From Amycolatopsis australiensis (lineage in GTDB: Bacteria > Actinomycetota > Actinomycetes > Mycobacteriales > Pseudonocardiaceae): a stretch of DNA of 64,000 bases. The notes beneath the pieces are model-generated. The model was not told the DNA's origin. It made no database searches and saw nothing but the letters and a program-made list of their open reading frames with translations. This document shows, in pieces, positions 35,814 to 47,820 of the stretch. The stretch covers positions 8,284,001 to 8,348,000 of the forward strand of contig NZ_FPJG01000006.1 of assembly GCF_900119165.1 (NCBI RefSeq), in the 5' to 3' direction. The position numbers and the translations under genes are program-made. Each line of letters starts with the position of its first letter. The stretch's first letter is position 1.

Positions 35814-36601
35814 CGCGGGTCGAGCAGGCGGCCGATCGCGGCCAGGACCGGTTCCAGGACCTCGACCTCGCGGGGCGTGCCCACGCACTCCGTGATGCCC
35901 GCGCCCACCACGTCGAACTCCGCCAGCGCGTCCAGTTCGGACACCAGGCGGGCGATCGTCCAGCCGTCCGGCTCCGGGTAGTTGAGTCCCGGGAACTCCC
36001 CCGGATCCAGTACGTCCAGGTCCACGTGGACGTACAGCTTCTCCACGTCCGCCAAGGCGTCGGACGATGTGACCGCCAGTCCCCGGGAAACCGCCGCCCG
36101 CTCGTCCGGGTCGAACACCCGCGTACCCAGCAGCGCCACGCTGCCCGGCGAAAGCGCCGGGTCCGCCGCGAACTCCGGGTCGCCCTCGCCGAACAGCGAC
36201 CGCAGCACCATCCCGTGGAACGCGCCCGACGGGGACGTCGACGCCGTGTTCAGGTCCGCGTGGGCGTCGAACCACGCGACCCCCAGCCCGGGCCCGTACC
36301 GGAAGCGCGCGACACCGATCGGCACCAGCTCGACGCCGCAGTCGCCGCCGATCGTGAGCACCGGGCCGCCGGGTGCCTCCAGCGCCGCCAGCTGCGCCGC
36401 GCGGTTGGGGCCGGTCAGCACGGCGCGCGACGCGATGCCACGGTCTACTTCGGACACTTCGCGGGTCTGGCGGACGTGGTGCACGGGCCGGCCGAGCACG
36501 TGCCCGGCCAGCTCCGCGAGCGCCAGGCAGCCGTCCGGCAGGCCCGCCGCCCGCGGTCCCACCGCGCCCTGGCGCTGCGGGACCGCGTTGATCAGCGTCA
36601 C
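35810..36601 (-). CDS. Arginase/agmatinase-fold hydrolase
   Basis: This 263-residue ureohydrolase-fold protein shows the metal motifs GGDCG, WFDAHADLN and HVDLDVLDP. The first motif has Cys where classical arginases and agmatinases have His (GGDH), while the Asp/His/Asp set of the second is intact. It is shorter than typical arginases (about 300). The GTG start overlaps the pyruvate carboxylase stop (GTGA), so it is co-translated with pyc. The substrate is uncertain; Cys in this position could change the metal or the reaction. Confidence 0.85.
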   Translation of the reverse strand: MTLINAVPQRQGAVGPRAAGLPDGCLALAELAGHVLGRPVHHVRQTREVSEVDRGIASRAVLTGPNRAAQLAALEAPGGPVLTIGGDCGVELVPIGVARFRYGPGLGVAWFDAHADLNTASTSPSGAFHGMVLRSLFGEGDPEFAADPALSPGSVALLGTRVFDPDERAAVSRGLAVTSSDALADVEKLYVHVDLDVLDPGEFPGLNYPEPDGWTIARLVSELDALAEFDVVGAGITECVGTPREVEVLEPVLAAIGRLLDPR

Positions 36602-39600
36602 TCCAGCACCAGCAGCAGGTCACCGCCCTCGACCTGCTGGACGTTCGTGATCGCCAGCCTGGCCACCCGGCCGCCGGTGGACGCGGTGATCGACGCCTCC
36701 ATCTTCATCGCCTCGATCGTCGCGACCGTGGCACCGGCCTCGACCGTGTCGCCCTCGGCGACCTGCAGCGTCACCACGCCGGCGAACGGCGCCGCGACCT
36801 GCTTCGGGTTGCCCTTGTCGGCCTTCTCGGTCGCCGGGACGTCGGAGGCGATCGAGCGGTCGCGGATCTGGATCGGGCGCAGCTGGCCGTTGAGCGTCGA
36901 CATCACCGTGCGCATGCCGCGTTCGTCGGCCTCGCCGATGGCCTCCAGCTCGATGAGCAGCCGCACGCCCGGCTCCAGGTCGACCTGGTACTCCTCGCCC
37001 GGGCGCAGCCCGTAGAAGAAGTCCTTGCTGGGCAGCACCGACGTGTCACCGTAGGCCTCGCGGTGGGCTTCGAACTCCTTCGTCGGGCCGGGGAACAGCA
37101 GCCGGTTGAGCGTCCGGCGCGGTTCAGCCGCCAGTGCGGTCCGGTCCTCTTCGGACAGTTCGACGACCGGCTTCGCCGCCGCGCGGCCTTCGAGGGCCTT
37201 GGTGCGGAACGGCTCCGGCCAGCCGCCGGGCGGGTCGCCCAGCTCGCCGCGCAGGAAGCCGATCACCGAGTCGGGGATGTCGAACTTGTTCGGCTCGGCC
37301 TCGAAGTCGGCCGGCGAGACGCCCGCGCCGACCAGGTGCAGCGCCAGGTCGCCGACGACCTTCGAGGACGGCGTCACCTTCACCAGGTGGCCGAGGATCT
37401 TGTCGGCCGCGGCGTACATCGCTTCGATGTCCTCGAACCGGTCGCCCAGGCCCAGCGCGATGGCTTGGGTGCGCAGGTTCGACAGCTGCCCGCCGGGGAT
37501 CTCGTGGTGGTAGACGCGCCCGGTCGGCGACGCCAGCCCGGCCTCGAACGGCGCGTAGATCTTGCGCACGCTCTCCCAGTACGGCTCCAGGTCGCCGATC
37601 GCCTGCAGGTCGAGCCCGGTGGTGCGGTCGGAGTGGTCGGTGGCCGCCACGATCGACGACAGCGACGGCTGCGACGTGGTGCCCGCCATCGACGACACGG
37701 CGCCGTCGACGGCGTCCGCGCCCGCCTGGATCGCCGCGAGGTAGGTGGCCAGCTGGCCGCCCGCGGTGTCGTGGGTGTGGATGTGCACCGGCAGGTCGAA
37801 CTCCTTGCGCAGCGCGGTGACCAGCTTGGTCGCCGCGGGCGCGCGCAGCAGCCCGGCCATGTCCTTGATCGCCAGGACGTGCGCCCCGGCACCGACGATC
37901 TGCTCGGCCAGCTTGAGGTAGTAGTCGAGCGTGTAGAGCTTCTCGCCCGGATCGGACAGGTCCGAGGTGTAGCACAACGCCACCTCGGCGACGGCCGTCC
38001 CGGTCTCGCGCACGGCTTCGATGGCCGGGCGCATCTGCTCGACGTCGTTGAGCGCGTCGAAGATCCGGAAGATGTCGATCCCGGTCTTGGTGGCCTCGTC
38101 GACGAACGCGGTCGTCACCTCGGTCGGGTACGGCGTGTACCCGACGGTGTTGCGCCCGCGCAGCAGCATCTGCAGGCAGATGTTCGGCACAGCCTCGCGC
38201 AGCGCGGCCAGCCGCTCCCACGGGTCCTCGGCCAGGAACCGCAGCGCCACGTCGTAGGTCGCGCCGCCCCAGCACTCCAGCGAAAGCAGCTGCGGCAGGG
38301 TGTTCGCGACGACCGGCGCGACCGCGAGGAGGTCCTTCGTCCGGACACGGGTGGCGAGCAGCGACTGGTGCGCGTCCCGGAACGTCGTGTCGGTGACGCC
38401 GATGTGCGGCGACTTCCGCAGCCACTCTGCGAACCCGGCCGGCCCCAGCTCGGCGAGCTTCTGCTTCGAACCCGGCGCCGGCTGCGCGTCCTCCGGCAGC
38501 TTCGGGAGCTTCAGCGTGGCGTCCGGCGTCTTCGGGCGCTCGCCGTGCGGCTTGTTGACCGTCTGGTCGGCGAGGTAGGTGAGCAGCTTCGTGCCGCGGT
38601 CGGCCGAGGACCGGGCGGTGAGCAGGTGCGGGCGCTCCTCGATGAACGAGGTCGTCACGCGCCCGGCGCGGAAGTCCGGGTCGTCGAGGACGGCCTGCAG
38701 GAACGGGATGTTCGTCGCGACCCCGCGGATCCGGAACTCGGCGACGGCGCGGCGCGCGCGGCCGACGGCGGTGTCGAAGTCGCGGCCCCGGCAGGTGAGC
38801 TTGACCAGCAGCGAGTCGAAGTGGGCGCTGATCTCGGTGCCGGAGAAGGCGGTGCCGCCGTCGAGCCGGATACCGGAGCCGCCCGGCGAGCGGTAGGCGG
38901 AGATCATGCCGGTGTCCGGGCGGAAGCCGTTGGCCGGGTCCTCGGTGGTGATCCGGCACTGCAGGGCGGCGCCGCGCAGGTAGATCTTGTCCTGGGACAG
39001 GCCGAGGTCGGCGAGGGTCTCGCCGGCGGCGATCCGCAGCTGCGACTGCACGAGGTCGACGTCGGTGACCTCTTCGGTGACCGTGTGCTCGACCTGGATG
39101 CGCGGGTTCATCTCGATGAAGACGTGCTTGCCTTGCTTGTCGAGCAGGAACTCGACGGTGCCGGCGTTGCGGTAGCCGATCTGGCGGGCGAACTTGACCG
39201 CGTCGGCGCAGATGCGCATCCGCAGCTCGGGGTCGAGGTTCGGGGCCGGGGCCAGCTCGATGACCTTCTGGTGGCGCCGCTGCACCGAGCAGTCGCGCTC
39301 GAAGAGGTGGATGACGTTGCCCTCGCCGTCGGCGAGGATCTGCACCTCGATGTGCCGCGGCTCGACGACGGCCTTCTCGAGGAAGACGGTCGGGTCGCCG
39401 AAGGCGGACTCGGCCTCCCGCGCGGCGGCCTCGATGGACTCGCGCAGCAGGGCGGGGTCCTCGACCCGGCGCATGCCGCGCCCGCCACCGCCGGCGACGG
39501 CCTTGACGAAGACGGGGAAGCCCAGCTCCTCGGCGGCCGCGACCAGCGTGTCGACGTCACTCGACGGCTCGGACGACCCGAGCACCGGCACCCCGGCCTC

Positions 39601-39975
39601 CCGCGCGGCCTTGACCGCGCGCGCCTTGTTACCGGTGAGTTCGAGGATGTCGGCGCTCGGCCCGACGAAGGTGATGCCCGCTTCCTCGCACGCGCGCGCG
39701 AGATCGGGGTTCTCGGAGAGGAAGCCGTAGCCGGGGTAGACGGCGTCGGCTCCCGCCTTCTTCGCGGCGGCGACGATCTCGTCGACCGAGAGGTAGGCGC
39801 GCACGGGGTGACCGGGTTCGCCGATCTCGTACGCCTCGTCGGCCTTCAGCCGGTGCAGCGAGTTGCGGTCTTCGTGCGGAAACACGGCGACCGTCCCGGC
39901 GCCCAGTTCGTAACCGGCGCGGAACGCGCGGATGGCGATCTCGCCGCGGTTGGCCACCAGCACCTTGCGGAACAT
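36598..39975 (-). CDS. pyc: Pyruvate carboxylase
   Basis: The 1125-residue biotin enzyme replenishes oxaloacetate from pyruvate and bicarbonate. Domains in order: biotin carboxylase (residues about 1-450, with GGGGRGM and EMNPRIQVEH), carboxyltransferase TIM barrel (about 520-790, with DTTFRDAHQSLLATR and HTHDTAGGQ), a PYC-specific domain and the biotinyl domain with EAMKME (Lys1091 biotinylated). GAAGGACC precedes the ATG. The gene follows rsmD in mycobacteria; here 20 kb of other genes lie between. Confidence 0.98.
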   Translation of the reverse strand: MFRKVLVANRGEIAIRAFRAGYELGAGTVAVFPHEDRNSLHRLKADEAYEIGEPGHPVRAYLSVDEIVAAAKKAGADAVYPGYGFLSENPDLARACEEAGITFVGPSADILELTGNKARAVKAAREAGVPVLGSSEPSSDVDTLVAAAEELGFPVFVKAVAGGGGRGMRRVEDPALLRESIEAAAREAESAFGDPTVFLEKAVVEPRHIEVQILADGEGNVIHLFERDCSVQRRHQKVIELAPAPNLDPELRMRICADAVKFARQIGYRNAGTVEFLLDKQGKHVFIEMNPRIQVEHTVTEEVTDVDLVQSQLRIAAGETLADLGLSQDKIYLRGAALQCRITTEDPANGFRPDTGMISAYRSPGGSGIRLDGGTAFSGTEISAHFDSLLVKLTCRGRDFDTAVGRARRAVAEFRIRGVATNIPFLQAVLDDPDFRAGRVTTSFIEERPHLLTARSSADRGTKLLTYLADQTVNKPHGERPKTPDATLKLPKLPEDAQPAPGSKQKLAELGPAGFAEWLRKSPHIGVTDTTFRDAHQSLLATRVRTKDLLAVAPVVANTLPQLLSLECWGGATYDVALRFLAEDPWERLAALREAVPNICLQMLLRGRNTVGYTPYPTEVTTAFVDEATKTGIDIFRIFDALNDVEQMRPAIEAVRETGTAVAEVALCYTSDLSDPGEKLYTLDYYLKLAEQIVGAGAHVLAIKDMAGLLRAPAATKLVTALRKEFDLPVHIHTHDTAGGQLATYLAAIQAGADAVDGAVSSMAGTTSQPSLSSIVAATDHSDRTTGLDLQAIGDLEPYWESVRKIYAPFEAGLASPTGRVYHHEIPGGQLSNLRTQAIALGLGDRFEDIEAMYAAADKILGHLVKVTPSSKVVGDLALHLVGAGVSPADFEAEPNKFDIPDSVIGFLRGELGDPPGGWPEPFRTKALEGRAAAKPVVELSEEDRTALAAEPRRTLNRLLFPGPTKEFEAHREAYGDTSVLPSKDFFYGLRPGEEYQVDLEPGVRLLIELEAIGEADERGMRTVMSTLNGQLRPIQIRDRSIASDVPATEKADKGNPKQVAAPFAGVVTLQVAEGDTVEAGATVATIEAMKMEASITASTGGRVARLAITNVQQVEGGDLLLVLE

Positions 39976-40168: not shown

Positions 40169-41062
40169 TCAGCCGCCGGGCGGCGCGTAGAGCAGCCGGT
40201 TGGCCGTGCCGTCCGGAACGCCCTGCAGCGCGTCCGGGGTCGCCGCCTGAACAAGCGCTTGGTCCACTTGGGCCGGTGCCGCCTCCGGGTGCTGGGCGCG
40301 GTACAGCGCCGCCACCCCGGCCGCGAACGCCGCCGCCATCGAGGTGCCCGATTCCGGGCCCGCTCCCGCGCCGCCCGCGATCGGGGCCGGGATGTCCACG
40401 CCCGGCGCGTACAGGTCGACGTCCTGGCCGAAGTTCGACGCCTTGTCCGGCCGGTCCTGGGCGTCGCTCGCCGCGACGGTCAGCGCCTCGGCCACGCGGC
40501 CCGGCGAGAACCCGCTCGCGTCGGCGGTCTCGCTGCCCGCCGGGACCGCGACCGGGACCACCGCCGCCAGCCGTTTCACCGCGGCGTCGAGCCGGTCGTT
40601 GGGCACGCCGCCGATGCCGAGGACGGCGACCGCGGGCTGCTGGGCGTTCTGGGCGACCCAGTCGATGCCCGCGATGATCCGGTCGGTCGCGCCGCCGCCG
40701 TCCTTGTCGAGCACCCGCACCGGCACGATCTGCGCGCCCTTCGCGACGCCGTAGTCCTTCCCCGCGGCGAGCCCGGCGAGCCGTGTGCCGTGGCCGTTGG
40801 TGTCGGAGGTGTCCGAGCCGCCGCCGAGGAAGTCCCGCCCCGGCGCGACGCGGCCCTGGAAGTCGGGGTGCTTCGCGTCCACGCCGCTGTCGATGACGTA
40901 GATCGAGACGCTCGAAGCGTCCGTTGCGTAGTGGTAGGCGTGGTCCTGCCCGGTGCGCTGGTCGATCCGGTCGAGCCCCCAGCTGGGCGGGTCCGGCTGC
41001 ACACCGCCGGCGGCGGCCTGCCCGGCGAGCACGGCCGTCATCGCCGCGAGAAGCATCCTCAT
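40169..41062 (-). CDS. Exported subtilase-family protein with altered oxyanion hole
   Basis: The 297-residue protein has a signal peptide (residues 1-19) and the S8 catalytic triad: Asp58 (YVIDSGVD), His91 (NGHGTRLAGLAAG) and Ser231 (SGTSMAAAFAAG). The oxyanion-hole Asn, normally in AAGN, is replaced by Ser167 (VPAGSE). No I9-type propeptide lies between the signal peptide and the catalytic domain, unlike most secreted subtilases. It starts 37 nt after the caspase-fold gene on the same strand and is probably in its operon. It may be a weak protease, a pseudo-protease or one needing activation. Confidence 0.85.
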   Translation of the reverse strand: MRMLLAAMTAVLAGQAAAGGVQPDPPSWGLDRIDQRTGQDHAYHYATDASSVSIYVIDSGVDAKHPDFQGRVAPGRDFLGGGSDTSDTNGHGTRLAGLAAGKDYGVAKGAQIVPVRVLDKDGGGATDRIIAGIDWVAQNAQQPAVAVLGIGGVPNDRLDAAVKRLAAVVPVAVPAGSETADASGFSPGRVAEALTVAASDAQDRPDKASNFGQDVDLYAPGVDIPAPIAGGAGAGPESGTSMAAAFAAGVAALYRAQHPEAAPAQVDQALVQAATPDALQGVPDGTANRLLYAPPGG

Positions 41063-41099
41063 GATCGTCGTCGTACCCCGGCGGTGACCGGGCGACAAC

Positions 41100-43379
41100 T
41101 CAGGGCCGTCGCTCGATCGGCTGATTCCGCGCCCGCACGGCGAGCACGACGACGTCGGCGGCCAGCAGCACGAGAGCGATGGTGGCGACGATCTGGCCGG
41201 CGTAGGTCAGGGAGGAGTGCTCGAGCACGGCCGCGAACGTCGGCGCGAGGACGCCCAGCAGTCCCGCGGTCCCGCCGGCGAGCACGGCCCAGCGCAGCCC
41301 GGCGGGGCGAAGGACAAGGGCGAGGACGGGAACGACAACGGCGAGCAACGCCCCGAGCACGAAGTAGGCCGCCGCCCGCCCGCCGTCGCTGCGGTCGTGG
41401 TCGGCCAGTTCGGCGAGCTGCCCGGCCCAGCCACCGGCGGCGACCAGCCCGAGCCCGATCGCCACCCAGCCGTCCCAGCCCCGCACCCGCCCGGCCCCGA
41501 ATCCCCCGGCCCGCCTCAGCACGACGAGCGCGGACGTCCCGGCGACGACGAGCGCGAGGTGGGCGAGCAGCAGGAAGGCGAAGCCCGCGCTGAGGTCCGA
41601 GGAGCCGTCCTGGGAGAGGGTGATGAGATCGCCGAGGAAGCGAAGCAAGCCGAAGAGCGCACCGAGCCCGGCCCCGGCCAGCAGCGCGGGGCCGACGTGC
41701 CGGCGGGCACGCGGAGCGAGGGTCAGGATGCCGGCGAGCAGGGCGGTCCCGGCGACGAGCACGACGTAGACGGGCATGCCCGGCCGGTAGTCGGCGAGAC
41801 TGTACTCGCCGTAGCGGTAGTAGAGGCCGAGTCCGAGGAAGGCGAAGAGCGCGCCGGTGATGGCGAGGATGCCGGCGAAGCCACCGACCGGATCCACCGG
41901 CCCGGGCGCGACGGGCCGGGCCCCGGTCTCGGCGACGGCTTCGGCCTCCGGCGCGGCCACCGGCGCAGGCTCCACAATGGCCTGAGGCTCAGGCTCATGC
42001 GCCACGACCGGCTCGGGCTCCCGCTCCACCACCGGCTCCGGCGCCACGACCGGTTCTGGCTCGACGACCGGCTGGTGCTCCGGCGCCACGACCGGCTCCG
42101 GCTCGACGACCGACTGGGGTTTCGGCACCACGACCGGCTCCGGCTCGACGACCGGGAGCGTCTCGATCTCCACCGCCACCACGACCTCACCGGTGGGACC
42201 GCGGACCACGACCTTCCCCCGCCGCGTGCCCGACTCGCCCGCCGTCACCCTCAGCTCCGCGCCCGACGCCGTCTCCGCGACGCCGATCCACGCGTGCGAA
42301 GCCTCGAACCGCACCTCACGCGCCACGGGCGGCCCCGCCGTCCGCAGCTCCGCCGACGCCACCTCCCCGGGCGCCGCCGACAGCCGCACCGACGGCACCG
42401 CCACCTGCACCAGCGCGGAGCCCAGTGCGTCCGAGGCCGCCGCGGCCACGTGCTCGATGTCCGTCGCCGCCATCGTCTTCAGTGCTTCGAACGCTCCCAT
42501 GGCCACCGGCAGGTTGTCGCTCGCCAGCCTTCGCCGCAGCTCCGCCACCGCGCCCAGGCGGGTGAACGGGTTCTCCGCCTCGATCGCCGCCGCCAGGTCG
42601 GCCGGGACCGGCGACGGCTTGATGCGCCGCCGCCTGCTCTTCGCCAGGTACAGCTCGCCCTGCATCTCGATGTCACGGCTCGGTGTCTGCTTCGGGTTGC
42701 GCTCGCGGACGCGGTCGAACAGGTACTCGTACAGCTCGCCCAGCGCGATCCAGCCGTCCTCGTCGCGGTCGGCCTCGCCCGTGCGCAGGCCTTCCACCAA
42801 CGCCGACGTGAACACCGAAGGCTGCGCCGGCTGTCCTTCCGCCAATCGCGCGCCTTCGAAGGCGTACTCGATCGAGTTCGACGCCGTGATGACCGCCCGG
42901 CCGCGGCCACCGCGGAAGCTGTCCAGCACGTTCGCCTCGCCCGACGCCCGTACCGTGACGCCCTGGGCGAACGCCCCGCCGTAGCAGCAGTCCAGCAGCA
43001 GCACGATGCTGCGCGAGCGGCTCTGCCGGATGCACAGCCGCACGAAGTCCGCCGGCACCGCCGTCGACCGCAGCCGGTCCGGCCGGGTGTTGCGGGCGGC
43101 GAAGAACAGCCCGCCCGAGTCGTCTTTCAGGCCGTGGCAGGAAAAATGCAGCAGCAGGACGTCGTCGGGACGGCCCTCCGCGCAGAGGTCTTCGATCTCA
43201 GCCTGCACGACGTGCGCGGTCTCGTTGCGCACGACGCGGACCTCGAAGTCGCTGATCGCCCGGTCACCGAGCACTCCGGCGAGGGCGTCGGCGTCCGCCG
43301 CGGGCGAGCCCAGCCGCTGCAGCCCCGCGTTGTCGTACTCGCCGTTGGCGACGATCAACGCCCGCCTCCGCCCCGCCAT
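41100..43379 (-). CDS. Caspase-fold protein with C-terminal membrane domain
   Basis: The 759-residue protein begins with a caspase (C14) domain (residues about 4-240). Its dyad is His82 (HFSCHG) and Cys132 (LLLDCCYGGAF), and an acidic EF-like EADRDEDGW lies near 207. Next come a helical stretch of about 60 residues resembling HEAT repeats (about 280-340), a beta-rich domain (about 345-425) and a Pro/Glu/Val linker of about 80 residues built from EPEPVV. The C-terminus has eight to ten transmembrane helices (about 515-750). This architecture suggests a membrane-tethered cytoplasmic protease. The ATG start has a poor ribosome site. A role in cell death or defence is possible but unproven. Confidence 0.85.
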   Translation of the reverse strand: MAGRRRALIVANGEYDNAGLQRLGSPAADADALAGVLGDRAISDFEVRVVRNETAHVVQAEIEDLCAEGRPDDVLLLHFSCHGLKDDSGGLFFAARNTRPDRLRSTAVPADFVRLCIRQSRSRSIVLLLDCCYGGAFAQGVTVRASGEANVLDSFRGGRGRAVITASNSIEYAFEGARLAEGQPAQPSVFTSALVEGLRTGEADRDEDGWIALGELYEYLFDRVRERNPKQTPSRDIEMQGELYLAKSRRRRIKPSPVPADLAAAIEAENPFTRLGAVAELRRRLASDNLPVAMGAFEALKTMAATDIEHVAAAASDALGSALVQVAVPSVRLSAAPGEVASAELRTAGPPVAREVRFEASHAWIGVAETASGAELRVTAGESGTRRGKVVVRGPTGEVVVAVEIETLPVVEPEPVVVPKPQSVVEPEPVVAPEHQPVVEPEPVVAPEPVVEREPEPVVAHEPEPQAIVEPAPVAAPEAEAVAETGARPVAPGPVDPVGGFAGILAITGALFAFLGLGLYYRYGEYSLADYRPGMPVYVVLVAGTALLAGILTLAPRARRHVGPALLAGAGLGALFGLLRFLGDLITLSQDGSSDLSAGFAFLLLAHLALVVAGTSALVVLRRAGGFGAGRVRGWDGWVAIGLGLVAAGGWAGQLAELADHDRSDGGRAAAYFVLGALLAVVVPVLALVLRPAGLRWAVLAGGTAGLLGVLAPTFAAVLEHSSLTYAGQIVATIALVLLAADVVVLAVRARNQPIERRP

Positions 43380-43433: not shown

Positions 43434-44573
43434 CTACCCCGCCTCCGCCCGGAAAATCGTTTCCTGCCCTTTCAGGCAGACGACGGCGTCGAAGGCGGCC
43501 GCGACGTCGACCCGCACCGCCATGTGCGCGTGCCGGATGCTCGACGCCGCCGGGCTCGCGACCACGCACGGCGCCCGATCGGCCAGCACCGCCTCGACCC
43601 CGCCGTCCGCGGGCGCTTCGAGGGCCTGCTCGAACATCCGGAACCCGAGCCGCCCGGTTTCGTCGGGGACGAGCCCGGTCGTCGTCCCCGAAACGGCCGT
43701 GAGCGCGAGCGCGAAGTACCGGTCACCCAGCTCCGCGGCCAGGTGCGTGCCCGCCGACGGCGCCGTCATGCCCGGCATCGGCGAGAACGGCACCCGCTGG
43801 AGGTGTCCGTTGTGGAGCATCAGCACGACCTTCTCGCCCGGGTGCAGGCGGCGCAGCAACCGGACGGTCGCCGCCATGTACGTGTCGCGCGACGAGCTCT
43901 GCGGCTCCGGCGCCTGCCCGGCCATCAGCGCGTCCAGCTCACGCAGGTACAGGTCGACGCGCAGGGCGCCTTCGGCCAGATGCACGGCGACCTGGCCGTA
44001 GCCCGGCGCAAGCGATTCGACGTGTCCTTTGAGGATGGTCAACGCCGTCGTCGCCGCGTCCCGCGCTTCGGTGCTCATCTCCTTGTAGCGCGCGGGAGCG
44101 ACGGCGCTGCTCACCGACGCGTACGGCTGGCACGCCTTCAGCGCCGTGTCCACGAGGGACACCGCGGCCGGGTCCACGCGCTCGAGGTGCTCGCGCAGCG
44201 CCCGCAACGCCGGCACCGGCGAGCCCGCCGAACTCGGCACGTCGAGCCCGTAGAACCGGACGTCCCGGCCGCGCAGCCAGGTCAGCATCCCGTGCACCTC
44301 GGCCGAGTCGCCGAGGCCGAAGGTGAAGCCGTCGCGGGCGATGCCGGCGACGTCACCGGGGCCGCCCCGAAGCCACGCGTCGACCAGGTGCCCTTCCGGG
44401 AACCCGCTTTCGAACCCCAGCACGGTGAACCCGCGCTCGTCGACGAGGTGGCGCAGCAGCCGGTCGCGCAGCACGCCGAACTCGCGGATGTGATGGTTGT
44501 TCTCGCCGATGGCGACGACTTCGGCGTCGCCGACGAGGTCGGCGATCTCGGTGACAGCGACGGTTTCTGGCAT
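43434..44573 (-). CDS. Erythromycin-esterase-family protein
   Basis: The 379-residue protein belongs to the EreA/EreB-like family, with the N-terminal GENNHHIREF motif (Glu24, His27) and later FESGFPEGHLVDAWL and VVLMLHNGHLQRV. Family members include macrolide esterases and many enzymes of unknown substrate, such as succinoglycan-synthesis-type proteins. The ATG has no ribosome site, so the mRNA may be leaderless. It is divergent from a TetR gene 31 nt away, which probably controls it. Macrolide resistance is possible but not shown. Confidence 0.83.
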   Translation of the reverse strand: MPETVAVTEIADLVGDAEVVAIGENNHHIREFGVLRDRLLRHLVDERGFTVLGFESGFPEGHLVDAWLRGGPGDVAGIARDGFTFGLGDSAEVHGMLTWLRGRDVRFYGLDVPSSAGSPVPALRALREHLERVDPAAVSLVDTALKACQPYASVSSAVAPARYKEMSTEARDAATTALTILKGHVESLAPGYGQVAVHLAEGALRVDLYLRELDALMAGQAPEPQSSSRDTYMAATVRLLRRLHPGEKVVLMLHNGHLQRVPFSPMPGMTAPSAGTHLAAELGDRYFALALTAVSGTTTGLVPDETGRLGFRMFEQALEAPADGGVEAVLADRAPCVVASPAASSIRHAHMAVRVDVAAAFDAVVCLKGQETIFRAEAG

Positions 44574-45240: not shown

Positions 45241-45670
45241 CCCGGCCGCCGTCGATGGTCTCGGTCTGGGTCACGCCGTCGTCCACCCAGCCCTGCCGGA
45301 CGTAGAACGCCTTCGCCCGTTCGTTCGTCGACAGCACCCACAGGACGGCGCTGTCGCCGGTCAGCTCCTCGATGACCCGGTCGTGCAGCGCCCGGCCGAG
45401 ACCGCGACCCCAGTACTCCGGCAGCAGGTACAGCGCGTAGAGCTGCCCGTCCCCGAATGCGGCGAACCCGGCGAGGACGCCGTCCTCCTCGGCGACCAGC
45501 ACCCGGCCGATGCCCTCGCCGATGCGCCGCGCCCACGACGCGGCGCGTGAGGAAGCCGAGAGCCCGGCGAGGAAATCGTCCGGGAGCAGGCCCGCGTACG
45601 CCGCCTGCCACGACCGCACGTGGATCTCGCCGATCGCGGCCGCGTCGGCGACCGTGGCCGGCCGGATCAA
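45200..45670 (-). CDS. GNAT-family N-acetyltransferase
   Basis: The 156-residue acetyltransferase begins LIRPATVADAAAIGEIHVRSWQ and has the acetyl-CoA motif LYLLPEYWGRGLGRAL and AKAFYVRQGWV. The TTG start overlaps the recG stop (TTGA) and is preceded by GGAG, so it is translated with recG. Its 3' end overlaps the convergent TetR gene by 41 nt. The substrate is unknown. Confidence 0.87.
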   Translation of the reverse strand: MIRPATVADAAAIGEIHVRSWQAAYAGLLPDDFLAGLSASSRAASWARRIGEGIGRVLVAEEDGVLAGFAAFGDGQLYALYLLPEYWGRGLGRALHDRVIEELTGDSAVLWVLSTNERAKAFYVRQGWVDDGVTQTETIDGGRVTLEETRYRRSLP

Positions 45671-47820
45671 CTCTTCTCCAGGTATTCCGCGCGTTCCAGA
45701 TCGACGACGTCGGCGACCATCTGCGCGAGCCCGCGGTACTTCTTCAGCTCCGGATCCTGGTCGACGATCTCCTGCGCGCTGGCCCGCGACGCGGCGATGA
45801 CGTCTTCGTCCCGCAGCAGCGAAAGCAGCTTCAGCCCGGACCGCTTGCCCGACTGCGCGGCGCCGAGGATGTCGCCTTCGCGGCGCAGCTCCAGGTCCAG
45901 CCGGGACAGCTCGAAGCCGTCCGTCGTGGACTCGACGGCCGCCAGCCGTTCGCGCGTCGCCGTGCCGTCGAGCGCCTCCGTGACCAGCAGGCACAGGCCG
46001 GGCACGCTGCCCCGGCCGACGCGGCCGCGCAGCTGGTGCAGCTGGCTGACGCCGAACCGGTCGGCGTCCATGATCACCATCGCCGTCGCGTTCGGCACGT
46101 TGACGCCGACCTCGATCACTGTGGTGGCCACGAGGACGTCGAGCTGCCCCGCGGAGAACGCGCGCATCACCGCGTCCTTGTCGTCGGGCGGCATCCGGCC
46201 GTGCAGCACGCCGATCTTCAGGCCCTGCAACGGCCCGTGCTCCAGCTCGGGCGCGACGTCCAGCACCGCGAGCGGCGGCCGCTTGTCGCTCTTGTCCGAC
46301 GGCGGCTCGTCGCCGATGCGCGGGCACACGACGTACGCCTGATGCCCCTTGCCGACCTCTTCGCGGACCCGCTGCCAGATCCGGTCGAACCAGGCGGGTT
46401 TCTCGGCGACCGGCACGACCGTGGTCGAGATCGGGGACCGCCCGACCGGCATCTCGCGCAGCGCCGACACCTCCAGGTCGCCGTACACGGTCATCGCCAC
46501 CGTGCGCGGAATCGGCGTCGCGGTCATGACCAGGACGTGCGGGCTCGTGTCGCCGGCCCCGCGGGTGCGCAGCGCGTCCCGCTGCTCGACGCCGAAGCGG
46601 TGCTGCTCGTCGACGACGGCGAGGCCGAGGTCGGCGAACTCGACGTGGTCCTGGATGAGCGCGTGCGTGCCGACGACGATGCCCGCTTCCCCGCTGACGA
46701 TCTCCAGCAGCGCCTTCTTGCGCTCCTTCGCGCCCATCGAGCCGGTGAGCAGCGTGACGCGGGTGGCGTTCTCCGCCGCGCCCAGCTCGCCGGCCTGGCC
46801 GAGGTCGCCGAGCATTTCCCGCAGCGACCGCGCGTGCTGCGCGGCGAGGACCTCGGTCGGGGCCAGCATCGCGGCCTGCCGCCCGTTGTCGACGACCTGC
46901 AGCATCGCCCGCAGCGCGACGACCGTCTTGCCCGAGCCGACCTCGCCCTGCAGCAGCCGGTTCATCGGGTGGTCGGAGGCGAGGTCCGCGGCGATCTCGT
47001 CGCCGATCCCCCGCTGCCCGGCGGTCAGGTCGAACGGCAGCCGCTTGTCGAACGCGTCCAGGATCCCCCCGCTGACGTGCGGGTTCGCCTTCGCCGGCCG
47101 CGAGACCGCGGAGTGCCGCCGCTGCGCGAAGATCAGCTGGACGGCCATCGCCTCGTCCCACTTGAGCCGCTTCTTCGACGCCTCCAGGTGCGCCCAGTTG
47201 CTCGGACGGTGGATGCCGTGCAGGGCGGTGTCGAGGTCGGACAGCTTGTGCAGCCGCCGCAGCTCCGCGGGCATCGGGTCCTCGTCGACCTCCAGGACGT
47301 CCAAGACCTGCCGCACGCACTTAGCGATCGACCAGGTCGGCATGCCCTGCGCGGCCGGGTACACCGGGATGATCGCGGCGAGGAAGTCGTCCATCGCCTC
47401 GTCCGCGCGGTCGGCCTCGAAGAGCTCGTACTCGGGGTTGGTCAGCTGCAGCGTGTCGCGGAAGGCGGAGACCTTGCCGGCGAACAGGCCGGTCTTGCCG
47501 GGCACCAGCTCTTTTTCGCGCCACGCCTGGTTGAAGAAGGCGCAGGTCAGACGCTTCTTGCCGTCGGTGATCACCATGTCGAGGATGGTCCCGTTGCGTG
47601 ACTTCATCCGCCGCTTGCTCACCTTTTCGATGCGCGCCATGACGGTCGCGTGCTCGCCGAGCTCCAGCCCGGCGATGTCGGTGAGCTCGCCGCGCTCGGC
47701 GTAGCGGCGCGGGTAGTGGCGCAGCAGGTCGCTGACCGTCTCGATGCCCAACGCCGTGGAGAGCGCCTTCGCCGTCTTGGCGCCCAGCAGCAACGGCAGC
47801 TTGTCGCGCAATCCGGCCAT
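45667..47820 (-). CDS. recG: ATP-dependent DNA helicase RecG
   Basis: The 717-residue helicase remodels stalled replication forks and branched DNA. An N-terminal wedge/OB domain (HATVMARIEKVSKRRMKSRNGT) is followed by helicase motifs I (GEVGSGKTVVA), II (VVDEQHRFG), III (MTATPIPRT) and VI (QLRGRVGRG). It begins 3 nt after the DAK2 gene, as in mycobacteria (Rv2974c-Rv2973c). Confidence 0.97.
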   Translation of the reverse strand: MAGLRDKLPLLLGAKTAKALSTALGIETVSDLLRHYPRRYAERGELTDIAGLELGEHATVMARIEKVSKRRMKSRNGTILDMVITDGKKRLTCAFFNQAWREKELVPGKTGLFAGKVSAFRDTLQLTNPEYELFEADRADEAMDDFLAAIIPVYPAAQGMPTWSIAKCVRQVLDVLEVDEDPMPAELRRLHKLSDLDTALHGIHRPSNWAHLEASKKRLKWDEAMAVQLIFAQRRHSAVSRPAKANPHVSGGILDAFDKRLPFDLTAGQRGIGDEIAADLASDHPMNRLLQGEVGSGKTVVALRAMLQVVDNGRQAAMLAPTEVLAAQHARSLREMLGDLGQAGELGAAENATRVTLLTGSMGAKERKKALLEIVSGEAGIVVGTHALIQDHVEFADLGLAVVDEQHRFGVEQRDALRTRGAGDTSPHVLVMTATPIPRTVAMTVYGDLEVSALREMPVGRSPISTTVVPVAEKPAWFDRIWQRVREEVGKGHQAYVVCPRIGDEPPSDKSDKRPPLAVLDVAPELEHGPLQGLKIGVLHGRMPPDDKDAVMRAFSAGQLDVLVATTVIEVGVNVPNATAMVIMDADRFGVSQLHQLRGRVGRGSVPGLCLLVTEALDGTATRERLAAVESTTDGFELSRLDLELRREGDILGAAQSGKRSGLKLLSLLRDEDVIAASRASAQEIVDQDPELKKYRGLAQMVADVVDLERAEYLEKS

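Follow-up and report, generated by a model that had tools for sequence, protein, structure and literature searches.

The window, a 64,000-nucleotide stretch of the Amycolatopsis australiensis genome, carries on its minus strand a gene for a membrane-anchored caspase, here called CASP-A, followed closely by a gene for an S8-family protease. The features of the locus, in window coordinates, are as follows.

36598-39975, minus strand: pyruvate carboxylase (PYC), downstream neighbour
40169-41062, minus strand: S8 protease of 297 aa (PF00082), proteinase K/aqualysin-like, with a signal-like N-terminus
41100-43379, minus strand: CASP-A, EACC1-associated-type caspase of 759 aa, membrane-anchored (ORF, Pfam, NCBIfam and AlphaFold2)
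41127-41891, minus strand: CASP-A polytopic membrane domain, residues 497-751 (hydropathy and AlphaFold2)
41892-42152, minus strand: CASP-A Pro/Glu/Val-rich disordered linker containing EPEPVV (low pLDDT)
42153-42416, minus strand: CASP-A Ig-like β-sandwich, residues 322-409
42420-42602, minus strand: CASP-A HEAT-like helical stretch, residues 260-320 (AlphaFold2 model)
42672-43370, minus strand: CASP-A caspase (C14) domain, residues 4-236
42984-42986, minus strand: CASP-A catalytic Cys132
43134-43136, minus strand: CASP-A catalytic His82
43434-44573, minus strand: erythromycin-esterase-family gene (Ere, PF05139), upstream neighbour
45667-47820, minus strand: recG (Pfam), the gene just after which the EACC1-caspase pair lies in clade 2

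CASP-A was proposed to be a caspase-fold protein in a sequence-only reading of this DNA, and the profile searches agree, with scores of 57.8 bits against Pfam Peptidase_C14 (cut-off 21.4) and 162.4 bits against NCBIfam NF047832, "caspase, EACC1-associated type" (cut-off 140). The latter assignment also bears out the suggested link to families predicted for conflict or cell-death systems. The catalytic residues named in that reading, His82 in an SCHG motif and Cys132 in a DCCYGG motif, are invariant in an alignment of 44 relatives, and both motifs are retained in 42 of 43 genomes, the exception being G040. The remainder of the architecture that had been read from the letters is likewise visible in the AlphaFold2 model, in which HEAT-like helices at residues 260-320 are followed by β-strands at 330-407, a disordered linker of low pLDDT at about 410-490 and a membrane part of eight long helices at 497-751 (pLDDT 80-98 per ten-residue block), where hydropathy gives seven hydrophobic segments. 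Within the caspase domain region, residues 132-185, 205-214 and 231-251 are modelled with pLDDT below 50. The linker region contains a 42-bp tandem repeat (42034-42155, TRF). Among 23 copies from clade 1, the clade of the window, the protein measures 723-902 aa; CASP-A ends in a variable region with membrane helices, and the C-termini vary among relatives. One relative, from a Nocardioidaceae MAG (L169:5915-8857), has the same caspase front, followed by three hydrophobic segments and a part that looks GTPase-like by eye.

The two genes 3' of CASP-A are those for the S8 protease and pyruvate carboxylase, and the gene on its 5' side, 54 nt away, is the esterase-family gene, which usually adjoins S8 where the caspase is absent. 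By Pfam, the neighbours among six window proteins are housekeeping or metabolic rather than defence genes, and none of the six matches gasdermin. The S8 protein scores 115.3 bits against PF00082 and starts 37 nt from the caspase stop on the same strand, as had been noted, if the first of two nearby ATG codons is taken as the start. All three triad residues (Asp, His, Ser) are present in the window copy and the N-terminus appears signal-like by eye; alignment to aqualysin shows the oxyanion-hole Asn to be replaced, and the Pfam scan returned no propeptide domain. This replacement, by G, S or E, occurs in 69 of 70 copies of the S8 family at the site; in a comparison of the 70, the copies of G005, G062 and G032 also lack at least one triad residue. 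CASP-A and S8 are both beyond chance, each being a long open reading frame with a curated domain match above its cut-off and with low dN/dS, in the caspase domain and in S8.

To follow the two genes across the genus, we searched 80 Amycolatopsis genomes and took the S8 locus from 72 of them (not from G010, G026, G027, G036, G053, G057, G072 or G079). S8 is absent from the obtained contig in G022 and G034, leaving 70 loci that contain the S8 of this site; in G022 the contig ends inside the caspase, so that its CASP-A is a contig-end fragment. Among the matches listed, S8 is found in all 80 genomes, at E 1.3e-84 or better in 79 and as a distant match only (E 1.3e-25) in G022; the caspase is missing from 29 of the 72 loci. 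The marker gene that comes next after S8 is PYC in 68 of these 70 S8 loci, 63 of them with an Ere match, whether or not the caspase is present. In G050, a 54-nt tail of CASP-A is left before an intact S8 open reading frame. Since S8 is kept with or without the caspase and in the same order before PYC, it behaves as independent of the caspase and, judged from this gene order, is an older resident of the site and probably not a caspase partner.

A proteolytic pair or cascade of caspase and S8, the most striking suggestion of the earlier reading, is thus highly unlikely in our estimate. It would draw on the same-strand adjacency of the two genes, kept in all 25 clade-1 genomes that could be tested (among the matches listed), a pattern that a functional link would also give; on gaps that gene calls put at 37-67 nt across eight mapped clade-1 loci, some longer gaps of 100-247 nt being partial matches; and on a weak test that found no terminator-like site between the genes in the window. 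This spacing fits co-transcription, the part of the operon proposal that survives, but S8 resides at the site with or without the caspase and outlasts its loss. The adjacency, moreover, does not extend to other lineages: in the 17 genomes of clade 2 the caspase lies between recG and a GNAT gene, at an approximate distance of 3.1-5.6 kb from S8 in 16 of 16 measured, and none of five caspase loci from other genera contains an S8 match. S8 looks exported while the caspase domain is expected inside, and S8 activity is doubtful because of the oxyanion replacement. We read the adjacency in clade 1 as a single insertion retained by descent, and the locus cautions against taking the S8 neighbour for a partner.

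The conserved neighbour of this caspase family is instead EACC1. In EACC1 "System 4", as set out by Kaur et al. 2020 (PMC7159879), the 5' gene encodes EACC1, described with one conserved transmembrane helix, and the 3' gene often encodes a protein with an N-terminal caspase and a highly variable C-terminus, with membrane helices in at least a third; in the authors' proposal, EACC1 switches the caspase on and self-cleavage of the caspase helps to deploy the effector. Our search of the open-access literature found no experiments on any EACC1 system. An EACC1 gene, EACC1-A, sits directly 5' of the orthologous caspase in 17 of 17 clade-2 genomes, its end coinciding with the start of the caspase or lying at most a few bases from it, and an EACC1 match lies directly upstream in five of five relatives from other genera (two Lentzea, one Nocardioidaceae MAG and two Paractinoplanes). 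The two Lentzea caspases are similar to CASP-A in overall layout, with seven hydrophobic segments. As EACC1 adjoins the caspase in clade 2 and in other genera, and as the clade-1 caspases are united with those of clade 2 (support 96/87), the pair is likely the older state. The obtained clade-1 loci contain no EACC1-A match and CASP-A sits between Ere and S8; from this comparison of loci, the pairing is lost in clade 1, with the caspase moved a few kilobases off and EACC1-A absent. EACC1-A itself falls below the Pfam EACC1 cut-off. An AlphaFold2 model of a clade-2 copy (L164:5636-6004; pLDDT 88, from only 10 sequences) is globular α/β with no membrane helix, and its fold matches are ferredoxin- or PII-like and of middling strength; if this model is right and holds for the family, EACC1 would be a soluble switch.

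A second EACC1 gene, EACC1-B, lies about 285 kb from CASP-A in the window's genome (G000:C6:8612599-8612988), after a cluster that by eye resembles a glutamate-type ABC transporter. It shares 38-46% identity with EACC1-A (best E 1e-22), to which, among the matches listed, no other EACC1 of the genus is closer, and exceeds the Pfam EACC1 cut-off of 23.6 bits in all three copies scanned (27.7-33.8 bits). Its carriers, among the matches listed, are the clade-1 genomes except G050, plus G066, and in all 27 the open reading frame is intact at 128-132 aa. The same-type caspase that follows it, CASP-B, retains its start and catalytic motifs in 8 of the 27; in 7 it is a broken or partial remnant of differing extent, two of these being just some 30 nt long, and in the other 12, among them the window's genome, none was detected. 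Among the matches listed, EACC1-B occurs in each of the 26 clade-1 genomes that have CASP-A, the G022 fragment counted. G050 branches within the clade (SH-aLRT 98) and, among the matches listed, has neither CASP-A beyond the 54-nt tail nor CASP-B nor EACC1-B, but retains other EACC1 matches; G066 lacks CASP-A, of which a 23-nt match to its end persists (E 1e-4), and has both EACC1-B and CASP-B. Over these 28 genomes, EACC1-B is therefore present exactly where CASP-A or CASP-B is, counting as present the copies of G022, G040, where CASP-A is frameshifted, and G056, where it is truncated. The latter two keep EACC1-B and have no CASP-B. On the species tree of RecG and PYC (53 genomes having both), the state of CASP-A and EACC1-B without CASP-B requires seven changes, at least six of them forced by well-supported branches. 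In G050, the locus from which EACC1-B is missing contains, downstream, an 88-nt inverted pair (L143:8824-8915) resembling nt 1571-1668 of the G016 and G041 caspase genes.

Other EACC1 arrangements also occur in the genus. Of 10 loci examined, 8 (L175:4284-4616, that is G000:C6:969283-969615, as well as L176-L181 and L184) have a lone EACC1 next to an ABC transporter and pknA-pknB-like kinases; an EACC1-caspase pair directly adjoins this lone EACC1 in the window's genome, and in three carriers of it, G008, G009 and G068, there was no NF047832 match among the matches listed. At L185 (G000:C6:4376500-4386500), an EACC1-like gene is divergent from its caspase and does not overlap it.

Selection differs along CASP-A. 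In clade 1, with G022, G040 and G056 (fewer than 600 codons) omitted and pairs restricted to dS of 0.05-2.5, dN/dS is 0.12 in the caspase domain, next to 0.11 for RecG, and rises through 0.23 in the HEAT-like part and 0.44 in the β part to 0.58 in the membrane domain, the fastest-evolving part tested. That of S8 is well below 1. For EACC1-B, the median is 0.25 in the 19 genomes without CASP-B and 0.23 in the 8 with it, and the ratio ranges over 0.12-0.31 in eight close pairs lacking CASP-B; this shows purifying selection on EACC1-B with or without CASP-B. A constrained protease, a fast membrane end and a repetitive linker fit a gated enzyme for which conflict bears on the target or trigger side, and relaxed constraint would look similar.

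CASP-A is thus probably an EACC1-type conflict-system caspase, an EACC1-gated, membrane-anchored death protease that has lost its adjacent EACC1 and has no need of S8. It would stand in the membrane as a cytoplasmic protease, kept inactive until a danger signal comes from an EACC1 protein. Once activated, it may cut itself, in the linker, or cell proteins; cleavage could free or trigger the membrane domain, by release or membrane damage, or the protease might instead act at the membrane. Either way the cell would be stopped or killed, possibly as phage defence. S8 would act outside the membrane, on the side opposite the caspase domain, and would not be required. The alternative that CASP-A is a decaying, functionless relic in clade 1 we regard as unlikely. 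Its partner gene is lost, its frame is broken in G040 and G056, and it is deleted in G050 and possibly in G066; because of the frameshift and the truncation, it may be dispensable. Against decay stand the His and Cys motifs kept in all but one of the genomes and a caspase domain held almost as tightly as RecG.

Which EACC1 protein would do the signalling is a further matter. EACC1-B, without a caspase of its own in the window's genome, could activate CASP-A in trans, a split system that we entertain tentatively. EACC1-B stays intact in all its carriers even though CASP-B is gone or broken in 19, and the CASP-B-less state requires several changes on the tree, with remnants that differ in extent; every clade-1 genome with CASP-A has it, the nearest listed match to EACC1-A, while G050 lacks all three genes and G066 combines EACC1-B with CASP-B. 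That EACC1-B tracks the presence of a caspase and remains under purifying selection is what re-partnering in trans would lead one to expect. Counted by independent events, however, the association is weak, as both caspases are missing from a single lineage, G050, for which the chance, estimated by hand, is about 1 in 7, and G050 still has other EACC1 matches. Other EACC1 genes persist without any caspase, as at the pknB locus; G040 and G056 keep EACC1-B despite a broken CASP-A frame; and the clade-1 caspase shows no drift toward CASP-B residues (9 versus 8 matches of 46 fixed differences). The fuller form of this account, in which the separated half-loci, a membrane caspase without EACC1 and an EACC1 without caspase, re-partnered in trans over a distance of about 285 kb and are lost jointly, is possible and we hold it as loosely. 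The distribution suggests, and does not prove, an EACC1-caspase system divided between two loci. The pairing of EACC1 with caspases has until now rested on gene adjacency, and a clade in which that adjacency is broken and in which an intact pair, a caspase remnant, EACC1 alone and the loss of both all occur offers a direct test of EACC1 action.

Several described systems resemble parts of this locus. The window S8 is related in sequence to mycosin (TIGR03921) but scores 113.1 bits, far under the cut-off of 278.75; by eye it has no C-terminal membrane helix, and its scanned neighbours are not type VII genes. The NucA-peptidase systems, in the excerpts of Kaur et al. 2020, likewise group several proteases within a single operon or protein, sometimes with an S8 domain, but there trypsin or S8 accompanies a NucA nuclease, and NucA is not among the window proteins scanned. 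With the Canu caspase-nuclease antiphage system (PMC12799240), as excerpted, CASP-A shares MALT1 as the closest fold match and an Ig-like β domain in the same protein, and thus has the combination of a MALT1-like caspase with an Ig-like domain. Canu has a downstream MBL-fold pro-nuclease, and no MBL-type nuclease occurs among the six window proteins scanned; CanA is described there in a soluble CanAB complex, with no membrane domain mentioned in the excerpt, whereas CASP-A has one. The closest counterpart is System 4, which has in common with CASP-A the N-terminal EACC1-type caspase, the variable C-terminus, the membrane helices and an origin in multicellular actinobacteria. The HEAT, β, linker and eight-helix layout is not mentioned in the excerpted description (PMC7159879), and in the window's clade the adjacent EACC1 is replaced by esterase-family and S8 neighbours. 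The caspase of the window is a displaced member of this known, predicted conflict system.
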